From Thermoplasmata archaeon (GTDB lineage: Archaea > Thermoplasmatota > Thermoplasmata > Lutacidiplasmatales > UBA184): a stretch of 41,010 bases of DNA. Location: contig JAKATE010000002.1 in NCBI GenBank assembly GCA_021828085.1, positions 1 to 41,010 on the forward strand, written 5' to 3'. Positions 30,255-34,524 of the stretch are shown one piece after another; within the stretch, counting starts at the first letter, position 1; each line of letters begins with the position of its first letter. The notes under the pieces were generated by a model, which was not told the DNA's origin, did not search any database, and was given only the letters and a program-made list of their open reading frames with translations. The position numbers and the translations under genes are program-made.

Positions 30255-30331
30255 GCGGACTCCCTATGCTCCGGGCCCCCCGCGGGCACGGAGGATCCCC
30301 CTGTTCCCATGGGCCCGTAGCTCAGGCCGGT

Positions 30332-30362
30332 AGGTCGGAGGAGCGATCCTCCGGCCCGGTGA
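30332..30362 (+). other. tRNA intron 1 (D-loop, position 20/21), 31 nt
   Basis: Near-strict BHB: central 4-bp helix GCCG/CGGU, 3-nt bulges GTA and GAA, 10-bp intron helix capped by GCGA. Confidence 0.88.
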
Positions 30363-30401
30363 AGAGCACCCGGCTTTTAACCGGATGGTCCGGGGTTCGA
30401 A

Positions 30402-30442
30402 TGGCCGCAAGCCTCCCGAGGGGGAGCGAGGCGGCCCGAAGC
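30402..30442 (+). other. tRNA intron 2 (T-loop, position 59/60), 41 nt
   Basis: Strict BHB: T-stem CGGGG/CCCCG, central helix TTCG/CGAA, 3-nt bulges AAT and GCT, intron helix GGCCGC/GCGGCC. Confidence 0.92.
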
Positions 30443-30489
30443 TCCCCGCGGGCCCGTCTGCTGCGGCCCGCCGGGAAAGGGGGGACTCC

Positions 30490-30846
30490 GTGAGCCCCGC
30501 GAAGAGCCCCCCCGCGCGGCGTCGCGCGGCGAAGCCCAAGGCGGCCCCTCCGGAGCCGGCCAAGCCCTCCGGCCCCACCGCGCGGCACCAGCTGGTGCCG
30601 GCCCACGAGCTCCTGAGCGCCGAGGAGGGGGCCCGGGTGCTCGCCGACCTGGGGGTCCCGGTCGAGCGGCTCCCCAAGATCCTCCTCGACGATGCCGGTC
30701 TTCGCACCGATCCGAAGTTCTCCGAGCACGTGGAGAAGGACGGGCTCACGGGCCTCGTCGGCCGCCTCGTGCGCATCCATCGTCCCAGCCCTACCGCCGG
30801 CAGCTCGGTGGCCTACCGGGTCATCGTGGCCAGCGCGGAGGAATGA
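30490..30846 (+). CDS. rpoH: DNA-directed RNA polymerase subunit H with N-terminal extension
   Basis: GTG start; RHQLVPAHELLSAEEGARVLADLGVPVERLPKILLDD...GRLVRIHRPSPTAGSSVAYRVIV; extra ~30-aa Lys/Arg/Pro/Ala-rich N-terminus. Confidence 0.9.
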   Translation: MSPAKSPPARRRAAKPKAAPPEPAKPSGPTARHQLVPAHELLSAEEGARVLADLGVPVERLPKILLDDAGLRTDPKFSEHVEKDGLTGLVGRLVRIHRPSPTAGSSVAYRVIVASAEE

Positions 30847-30852
30847 AGGTCC

Positions 30853-33800
30853 ATGAGAGAGATCGTCGACGCTTTCTTCCGCGAGCGCTCCATCGTGAAC
30901 CACCACCTCGCCAGCTTCAACGACTTCTTGCCCTCGGACGACAACCGCAACTCGCGCATGCAGCGCATCGTCGACGAGGCGCGGGTGAGCGAGGACTCCT
31001 CCGAGCGGGGGATCATCCGCCTGGACGTCCAGAAGACCAAGAGCTCCATCTTCGTGCGCGTCGGGCGCCGGCGCGACAAGAACGGCCAGGTCGACCCCCA
31101 CGAGCCGGGGACCATCAGCGTCGGGAGCCCCTTCGTGAAGGAGGCGGTGGGGAGCAAGCCCTCGGTGACGCCCATGGAGGCGCGCCTGAGGAACCTGACC
31201 TACCTCGCCCCCATCGAGCTCACCATCACCGTGGTGGAGAACGGCGTCGAGCGGGCCCCCGAGACCGTGCACATCGGCGACATCCCCGTGATGGTGAAGA
31301 GCCGGTTGTGCAGCCTGCACCGGGCCAACATCGAGAAGGCGAGCCAGTTCACCCTCTCCCCCGAGGAGTACCGGGCGAAGCTCGTGGAGTACGGGGAGGA
31401 CCCGCTGGACCCCGGCGGCTACTTCATCATCGGCGGCACCGAGCGGGTCATCATCTCCCTGGAGGACCTCGCCCCCAACCGGATCTTCGCCGAGTTCAAC
31501 GAGCGCTACGGCACCCCCGTGGAGAGCGCCAAGGTCTTCTCCCAGCGCGGCGGCTATCGGAGCCTCACGGTGGTGGAGAAGAAGAAGGACGGGATCCTGC
31601 AGGTCTCGGTCCCCTCGGCGAGCGGACAGATCCCCCTGGTCGTCCTGATGAAGGCGCTGGGGATGAAGAACGACGAGGAGATCTACCAGGCCGTCCTCGG
31701 CGAGCTCCTCCCGCTCAACGAGGCCTTCGTGGAGACCATGAAGCACCTCCTCAACGTGAACCTGGAGGAGTGCACGAGCAAGAAGACCTACCCTCCGGAG
31801 GGGATCCTCACCACGGAGGACGCCCTGCTCTACCTGGAGAAGAAGTTCGCCACGGGCCAGGCCAAGGAGTACCGGCAGCGCAAGGTCGACGGGATCCTCG
31901 ACCACTCGCTCCTTCCGCACCTGGGCGACACCGCCCAGGACCGCCTGAAGAAGGCCCTCTACCTGGGCCGGATCGCCCGGACGGTCCTCGAGCTCTACCT
32001 CGGCCAGCGCGGCGAGGATGACAAGGACCACTACGCGAACAAGCGCCTGAAGCTCGCCGGGGACCTCATGGAGGACCTTTTCCGGGTGGCCTTCACCCTC
32101 CTCCTGAAGGACCTGAAGTACCAGCTGGAGCGCTCCTTCACGCGCAAGAAGGACCTTCGGATCTCCTCGGCCATCCGGCCGGACCTGCTCACGCAGAGGC
32201 TCGTCCACGCCCTCGCCACCGGTAACTGGGTCGGAGGACGGGCCGGGGTGAGCCAGCTGCTCGACCGGACGAGCCACATGTCCACCATCTCCCACCTGCG
32301 CCGGGTGACGAGCCCGCTCACCCGGAGCCAGCCGCACTTCGAGGCGCGCGACCTGCACCCGACGCAGTTCGGGCGGCTCTGCCCGAACGAGACCCCCGAG
32401 GGGCAGAACTGCGGGCTCGTGAAGAACTACGCCCTCGCCGTGGACGTCAGCGAGGGGGCCGACGAGGAGGAGGTGGCCCTCCTCCTGCGCGACCTCAACA
32501 CCCGCGAGATCGGGCCGGAGGTCTTCCAGGAGGCGCCCAGCGGCAAGGGACGCCGCGCGGCCCGGGTCTTCGTCAACGGCAACCTGGTCGGTCTCCACTC
32601 GAACCCCGAGGAGCTCGTCCGCGAGCTGCGCGAGCGGCGCCGGAGCGGCACGCTCTCGCCCACCCTGGGGGACCGAATCTACGAGATCAACACCCGCTAC
32701 GACGCCGAGATGAACGAGGTCATCGTCAACTGCGACAGCGGTCGGCTGCGCCGCCCGCTCCTGGTGGTGCGCCAGGCCGCCCCCCGGGTGAGCCGGGAGG
32801 ACCTCGACGAGCTCTCCCGGGGGACGCTCTCCTTCGCCGACCTCATCCGGGGCGGCAAGGTGGAGTGGGTCGACGCCGAGGAGGAGGAGGATTCCCTCGT
32901 GGCCGTGGCCCCGTACGTCATCCCCGAACGCTGCCCGAAGTGCCACCGCTCGATCTCGCGGGGCGATCAGCGCTGGACGAACGTCGGGGACCGGGCCCCG
33001 GAGGCGAAGCTCTCCTGCCTGCGCTGCGGGGAGGACTACTCGGTCCCGCTCTCGCTCGGGAAGGATCACACCCATCTCGAGATCGACCCCAACCTGATGC
33101 TGGGGGTCTGCACGGGCCTCATCCCGTACCCGGAGCACAACTCCACCCCTCGCAACACCATGGGCTCGGGGATGGCCAAGCAGTCCCTGGGGGTGGAGTC
33201 GGTGAACTACCGGCGCCGCCCGGACACCCGAGGGCACCTGCTGCACTATCCCCAGGCCCCGCTGCTGCGCACCCAGACCATGCGCTACGTGCACTTCACC
33301 GAGAGGCCGGCCGGGCAGAACTTCGTCGTGGCCGTCATCTCCTACGAGGGGTACAACATGCAGGATGCGCTCATCCTGAACCGCTCGGCGGTGGACCGGG
33401 GGCTCGGGCGCTCCTCGTTCTTCAGGACCTACCGCTCGGAGGAGCGCAAGTACCCGGGAGGACAGGAGGACCGCTTCGAGATCCCCCGGCCCGACGTCGC
33501 TGGGGCGCGCGTCGACACCGCCTACCGGAGCCTGGGGGAGGATGGGCTCATCTTCCCCGAGATGCAGGTCGCCGAGGGGGACGTGCTCATCGGCAAGACC
33601 TCCCCCCCGCGCTTCCTGGAGGAGAAGACCGACCTGCTCACCCCCCAGAAGCGCCGGGAGACCTCCGTCACGGTCCGGGCCGGGGAGAGCGGCTGGGTCG
33701 ACTCCGTGGTCCTCACCGAGGGGGAGAACATCTCCAAGCTGGTCAAGGTCAAGGTGCGCAACGAGCGCATCCCCGAGCTGGGAGACAAGTTCGCCTCGCG

Positions 33801-34524
33801 CCACGGGCAGAAGGGGGTGGTGGGGCTCGTGGTCGCCCAGGAGGACATGCCCTTCAACCGGCACGGCATCTGTCCGGACCTCATCATCAACCCCCACGCC
33901 ATCCCCTCCCGGATGACGGTGGCCCACGTCCTCGAGATGCTCGGGGGCAAGGTGGGCTCGCTGGAGGGCCGGTTCATCGATGGGACCGCCTTCTCCGGGG
34001 AGCGGGAGGAGGCGCTGCGGGAGTCCCTCAAGGACCTCGGCCTCGCCCCCTCGGGGCGGGAGATCCTCTACGACGGCCGGACCGGCCGGCGGATGGAGGC
34101 GGAGATCTTCATGGGCGTGATCTACTACCAGAAGCTCCACCACATGGTGGCCGGGAAGCTCCACATGCGCTCCCGCGGCCCCGTGCAGATCCTCACCCGG
34201 CAGCCCACCGAGGGGCGGAGCCGGCAGGGGGGTCTTAGGTTCGGAGAGATGGAGCGCGACACGCTCATCGGGCACGGGGTGGCCATGGTCATCAAGGACC
34301 GGCTGCTCGACCAGTCCGACGGGACCACGCAGTACGTCTGCGGCAACCCGGCCTGCGGGCACATCGCCATCCCCGACCATCGGGCCGGGACGCTGCGCTG
34401 CCCGACGTGCGGGAACACCTCGTCCATCTACCAGGTGGAGATGAGCTACTCGTTCAAGCTCCTGCTGGACGAGCTCATGAGCCTCGGCGTGGTCATGCGG
34501 CTCAACCTCGAGGACATGAAGTAG
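30853..34524 (+). CDS. rpoB: DNA-directed RNA polymerase subunit B (unsplit)
   Basis: 1223 aa; [74 protein letters not shown]-terminal Cys4 zinc motif. Confidence 0.98.

Follow-up and report, generated by a model that had tools for sequence, protein, structure and literature searches.

According to published reviews, Euryarchaeota have few tRNA introns, with one per gene at position 37/38 (PMC4090602, PMC4033280), and these single introns are tied to the narrow alpha4 and alpha'2 forms of the splicing endonuclease (PMC4090602, PMC4033280, PMC6379350). Introns at positions 20/21 and 59/60, and tRNA genes with several introns, are known chiefly from Crenarchaeota and Nanoarchaea; the tRNA-Pro(UGG) gene of Pyrobaculum islandicum, for example, has three, and intron transposition on a large scale has been described within the Thermoproteales (PMC4090602). 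Many tRNAs with several non-canonical introns have also been reported from the Asgard lineages Atabeyarchaeia and Freyarchaeia (PMC11291895), and Methanopyrus kandleri and Methanothermobacter thermautotrophicus are the euryarchaeal multi-intron exceptions (PMC4033280). The tRNAscan-SE 2.0 study reports 673 non-canonical introns from 217 archaeal genomes, and the portions of that paper relevant here do not discuss Thermoplasmata (PMC8450103). In the open-access literature we found no report of T-loop introns in Thermoplasmata, though an earlier notice in subscription papers or in GtRNAdb is possible; nor did the open-access literature searched describe so wide a taxonomic range, or an alpha'2 enzyme setting, for introns like those presented below.

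The DNA analyzed here (the window, 41,010 nucleotides) is contig C252 of a 2.10-Mb metagenome-assembled genome (MAG) of 263 contigs, which is 92.8% complete and 6.2% contaminated. Judged by RpoB, its relatives are MAGs of Thermoplasmata, among them Candidatus Lutacidiplasma silvani at 85%. A gene for pre-tRNA-Lys(UUU) lies on the forward strand at 30311-30456, followed on the same strand by the genes for RNA polymerase subunit H (rpoH, 30490-30846), a conserved neighbor, and subunit B (rpoB, 30853-34524), from which the search for relatives and the tree were made. The gene spans 146 nt and carries two introns. Exon 1 (30311-30331) extends from the 5' strand of the acceptor stem to D-loop position 20, and is followed by a 31-nt D-loop intron at 20/21 (30332-30362); exon 2 (30363-30401) extends from position 21 to A59, with the anticodon UUU within it, and is followed by a 41-nt T-loop intron at 59/60 (30402-30442); exon 3 (30443-30456) completes the gene from position 60 to the discriminator. 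Removal of both introns gives a canonical 74-nt product, 72 nt shorter than the precursor, which ARAGORN reads as tRNA-Lys(ttt). Its acceptor stem is GGGCCCG/CGGGCCC with a discriminator G, and the only irregularity in it is the mismatched pair C27-A43, which lies at the end of the anticodon stem. The original prediction had overlooked the D-loop intron and expected a product only 41 nt shorter; when the T-loop intron alone is removed, ARAGORN misreads the remaining gene. There is no intron at 37/38. A split or permuted tRNA was considered and rejected, as the three exons are collinear within the 146 nt.

The T-loop intron itself had been correctly predicted as a strict bulge-helix-bulge (BHB) structure, down to each of its elements. 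In the T-arm (30390-30448), the T-stem CGGGG/CCCCG is followed by a 4-bp central helix, TTCG/CGAA, flanked by two 3-nt bulges on opposite strands, AAT and GCT, and by the inner helix of the intron, GGCCGC/GCGGCC. Cuts after 30401 and 30442, i.e., after the second base of each bulge, restore the canonical T-arm, CGGGG-TTCGAAT-CCCCG, just as had been proposed. The minimum-free-energy (MFE) RNA fold of 30390-30448 is exactly this structure, at -33.7 kcal/mol. The fold energy by itself is only moderate evidence, the DNA being 70% GC; its z-score is -2.15, and 5 of 200 dinucleotide shuffles fold equally well. It is the comparison with related sequences that excludes a chance origin: the central helix has all four pairs in 98 of 104 distinct Lys T-loop introns, and at least three in all 104, while all four pairs form in 4.4% of shuffled introns.

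The second intron interrupts the D-arm as GCTC AGGCCGGT, the intron AGGTCGGAGGAGCGATCCTCCGGCCCGGTGA, and AGAGC. Its central helix is GCCG/CGGT, with bulges GTA and GAA, and its inner helix is GGTCGGAGGA/TCCTCCGGCC, closed by the loop GCGA; the fold has a z-score of -4.57, and none of 200 shuffles was as good. In this intron, as in the T-loop intron and in those of the relatives, the BHB is placed between a helix formed by the two exons and a helix formed by the intron. An alternative register, with the intron at 30333-30361, has near-equal pairing (CCGG/CCGG, with bulges TAG and TGA); the centroid fold favors 30332-30362, and the MFE fold favors 30333-30361. We chose 30332-30362 because the 9-nt loop that it leaves, AGNNNGGTA, matches the intronless orthologues, and rejected the alternative, which leaves an 11-nt D-loop. 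Among 41 D-arms of equal length, exon base 17a in the central helix covaries with its intron partner (A-T in 21, C-G in 20), and two-sided changes are found at nine of the nine pairs of the inner helix. That helix is 86.7% paired, compared with 35-60% when the register is slid.

The original prediction warned that standard searches might miss the gene. This was indeed the case: the unspliced gene was detected neither by ARAGORN, nor by Rfam at its gathering threshold, nor by a genome-wide scan with the Rfam tRNA model. It had also named an intact second tRNA-Lys(UUU) as evidence against itself; none was found in the genome, although in a MAG that is 92.8% complete this absence is no proof. The lysine codons of rpoB (30853-34524) are 53 AAG and 0 AAA. 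By this count AAA codons are apparently very rare, so the demand for tRNA-Lys(UUU) may be low, and the interrupted gene probably serves a rare codon in this genome.

Comparison with relatives, also called for by the original prediction, showed that the feature is widespread beyond this genome, the T-loop intron being present in 104 of 128 distinct tRNA-Lys(UUU) genes of the phylum. D-loop and T-loop introns occur together in 79 of these genes, and with an additional intron at 37/38 in 15; ten have the T-loop intron only, two the D-loop intron only, two the D-loop and 37/38 introns, and 20 have none. Methanomassiliicoccus MAGs (L077, L090, L112) are among those with the D-loop and T-loop pair. 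The suggestion that such an intron is unusual in a Thermoplasmatota-like genome therefore holds only by the standard of the published reviews. It fails within the class Thermoplasmata, where more of the genes seen are in the two-intron state than in any other and where many other tRNAs have T-loop introns as well. As in the window, the relatives' tRNA-Lys(UUU) genes with the same two introns sit upstream of rpoH-rpoB. RpoH is encoded in 66 of 67 named tRNA-Lys loci; in nearly all unnamed ones its gene lies just downstream on the same strand, and this holds for intronless tRNA-Lys genes in other classes of the phylum as well. This shared synteny, intronless genes included, indicates that the tRNA-Lys genes are orthologous. 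The genes with three introns (D-loop, 37/38 and T-loop), which were located through their synteny with rpoB, occupy the same locus in several Thermoplasmata lineages (L085:2502-, L073:2519-, L082:2524-, L087:2465-, L109:2498- and ten more). A search pattern that runs contiguously from the anticodon to the T-arm overlooks genes with a 37/38 intron, and genomes that it fails to match are thus no evidence of a missing gene.

Exons and introns have diverged to different degrees: within the window's own group (40 genes), identity is 92% for exons and about 54% for introns. In a 31-pair structure common to 12 pre-tRNAs of five isotypes, 94.9% of the cells are paired, and there are 83 two-sided changes, compared with 24.5 after shuffling. 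On a FastTree phylogeny of RpoB from 110 loci, whose root was set by the choice of outgroup, the six intron states need 7 changes, against a mean of 43 for shuffled states; families f4, f5 and f6 of the class Thermoplasmata, in which the tRNA-Lys(UUU) genes retrieved are intronless, stand outside this tree since their loci lack rpoB, and further changes must be added for them. These data favor, though they do not prove, a gain of the introns before the ancestor of the class with later losses, and suggest that some loop introns are old, rather than recently transposed. In another class of the phylum, one genome (G235) has a tRNA-Lys(UUU) gene with the T-loop intron alone (L238), which may reflect shared ancestry or a separate gain.

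Other tRNAs carry T-loop introns, too. With a covariance model that combines a tRNA and a T-loop intron (R1), T-loop introns were found in 11 of about 44 detected tRNA genes of the window genome, a minimum count. These are the genes for Lys(UUU), Asn(GUU), Gln(CUG), Ala(GGC) (two), Arg(UCU), Asp(GUC), Ser(GCU), His(GUG) and Ser(GGA) (two). The ten other than Lys (L242-L252 of this genome, G000) lie on contigs C99, C27, C249, C217, C151, C211, C152, C140, C223 and C181; the Rfam tRNA model overlooks six of them and gives only partial matches to the rest. The pattern GGTTCRAA-N{10,40}-CGAANC, applied genome-wide, matched the Lys intron and nothing else; it is blind to the other T-loop introns because of their A57 or GU-closed helix, hence the use of R1. 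Introns at 37/38 are also present in this genome, in genes for tRNA-Met, Tyr, Glu, Leu and Trp. Among the matches listed for 18 other Thermoplasmata genomes, at least 16 genomes have one or more T-loop introns (minimum counts), and the isotypes concerned include Lys, Arg, Met, Asn, Ala, Gln, Glu, Gly and others.

Two further loci of the window genome were noted in passing. One (L038, G000:C133, 93-703) is an Arg(GCG)-like tRNA whose D-arm contains an insertion and which the Rfam tRNA model did not detect. The other (L039, G000:C142, 1752-2362) is a tRNA-Trp(CCA) with a long 37/38 intron that resembles a C/D-box RNA intron; such an intron of tRNA-Trp is known from Euryarchaeota.

Across isotypes, base 57 and its intron partner are strongly associated (57 T-intron genes; Fisher p = 8e-14): the base facing G57 is C in 31 of 32 cases, whereas the base facing A57 is C in 1, G in 15 and T in 8 of 25. 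In the window genome, seven of the eight T-loop introns with A57, one in a Ser(GGA) gene (L251) among them, have an A57-G mismatch in the central helix, and many T-loop introns there therefore have a central helix of three pairs. In the A57 introns of this genome and of the family f1 genomes taken together, the facing base is seldom T and usually G, so that the central helix ends in an A-G mismatch.

The original prediction assigned splicing to EndA, and the genome does encode this enzyme together with the ligase RtcB; by analogy with established archaeal tRNA splicing, cutting by EndA and ligation by RtcB would be the expected route. A single EndA gene is present (L032:1207-2331), encoding 374 amino acids in an N-C-N-C arrangement, in which PF02778 and PF01974 are each matched twice. 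Read by eye, the catalytic Tyr, His and Lys can be recognized in the second unit only. That is, two units are fused and the catalytic residues are in the second, as in alpha'2-type enzymes, an architecture from which we infer that EndA works as a homodimer. Among structures in the PDB, the closest by sequence is M. kandleri EndA (5x89; E = 1e-38), and the alpha'2 enzymes 2gjw and 1r0v are matched as well. Compared with Aeropyrum pernix EndA (3p1z), the protein lacks, at one place in the N domain, about 9 residues, which we take to be the crenarchaea-specific loop near the active site; the loop was thus not found in this protein.

We consider it very probable that the locus represents the only copy of a functional tRNA-Lys(UUU) gene, that its transcript undergoes two splicing events carried out by the fused EndA and RtcB, and that its introns are old and mostly vertically inherited. 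The introns, their BHBs, conservation, covariation and synteny, and the presence of EndA and RtcB, are all observed in the sequence. The 146-nt precursor would fold into two BHBs, one extending the D-arm and the other the T-arm. EndA, as a fused alpha'2-type enzyme, would cut at 30331/30332, 30362/30363, 30401/30402 and 30442/30443, and release of the introns would be followed by RtcB joining the three exons into the canonical 74-nt tRNA. Both introns would have been inherited, for the most part vertically, within the class Thermoplasmata, a third intron, at 37/38, being present in one lineage group and introns having been lost repeatedly in others, and the Lys introns would be one part of a larger collection of T-loop introns spread over many tRNAs of the class.

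One caution is that A57-G mismatches mean that some T-loop introns are not strict BHB substrates, and alpha'2 enzymes are listed as having narrow specificity (PMC6379350). Splicing could thus be real, yet the loop introns, and those with the A57-G mismatch especially, could be cut by an undetected second subunit or by another nuclease, a possibility to which the three-pair central helix of 20 of the 57 sampled T-loop introns lends some weight. However, all 16 T-intron-bearing genomes tested encode both EndA domains within a single open frame, and none of them was found to contain another EndA gene. Moreover, published work reports cleavage of minimal BHB substrates by the homodimeric Ferroplasma EndA, and credits homodimeric forms with accepting BHL-like motifs (PMC8707768). 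We therefore regard the involvement of another nuclease as quite unlikely.

Two other explanations fare worse still. A decaying tRNA pseudogene, or an assembly artifact, with random insertions in the D- and T-loops would fit the failure of standard tools to detect a tRNA at this locus and the origin of the sequence from a MAG, but is highly improbable given that the same two insertion positions recur in dozens of independently assembled genomes, that exons are conserved while introns diverge with compensatory changes, and that no other tRNA-Lys(UUU) was found in the genome. Retention of the T-loop insertion in the mature molecule, as the extended T-arm of an unspliced tRNA-like RNA, would accord with the stable long hairpin that the unspliced T-arm forms, but is scarcely credible when the conserved pattern is a BHB with 3-nt bulges on both sides and no continuous helix, when splicing restores the invariant T-loop, and when the insertion is missing from the orthologous genes of sister lineages.

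If the twice-spliced, vertically inherited gene is what these sequences represent, Thermoplasmata have kept two or three introns in tRNA-Lys across many orders, against the picture of Euryarchaeota given in the reviews. Common T-loop introns beside a fused alpha'2 EndA are also at odds with the accepted coupling of EndA type to intron repertoire, which this combination makes directly testable. In practice, tools that expect only 37/38 introns would give tRNA counts for Thermoplasmata MAGs that are too low. More speculatively, the paired D- and T-loop introns might be kept as a maturation checkpoint. The central helices tie up positions 54-57 and 16-18, whose bases meet in the tRNA elbow; the elbow would form only once both introns are out, and this could gate RNase P, CCA addition and T-loop modification. 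An EndA of broader specificity than that published for alpha'2 enzymes would, on the same supposition, have let such introns spread through Thermoplasmata tRNAs. We think this proposal unlikely as it stands.

The positions of these introns and the chemistry of their splicing were already known; what stands out is their breadth, the number of introns, up to three, in one orthologous gene, and the EndA context. The likeness to the Thermoproteales, other Crenarchaeota and Nanoarchaeum lies in the same insertion positions, the same BHB logic and several introns per gene. By contrast, the host here belongs to the Thermoplasmata, the crenarchaeal insertion is missing from its fused alpha'2-type EndA, and, unlike the transpositions described in the Thermoproteales, the introns of Thermoplasmata tRNA-Lys are kept across many orders. 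The Atabeyarchaeia and Freyarchaeia belong to another phylum, and 92-95% of their tRNA genes have introns, whereas T-loop introns are found in about a quarter of the detected genes here. M. kandleri resembles the present case in that its EndA (5x89) is the closest solved structure by sequence; it differs in that this enzyme is placed in the (alpha-beta)2 class and its specificity described as constrained broad (PMC6379350). The multi-intron tRNAs of M. kandleri and M. thermautotrophicus are listed as isolated exceptions, whereas the multi-intron state of Thermoplasmata is class-wide. Finally, the canonical euryarchaeal BHB intron at 37/38 is absent from the window gene, but occurs elsewhere in the same genome and as the third intron in the tRNA-Lys genes of relatives.
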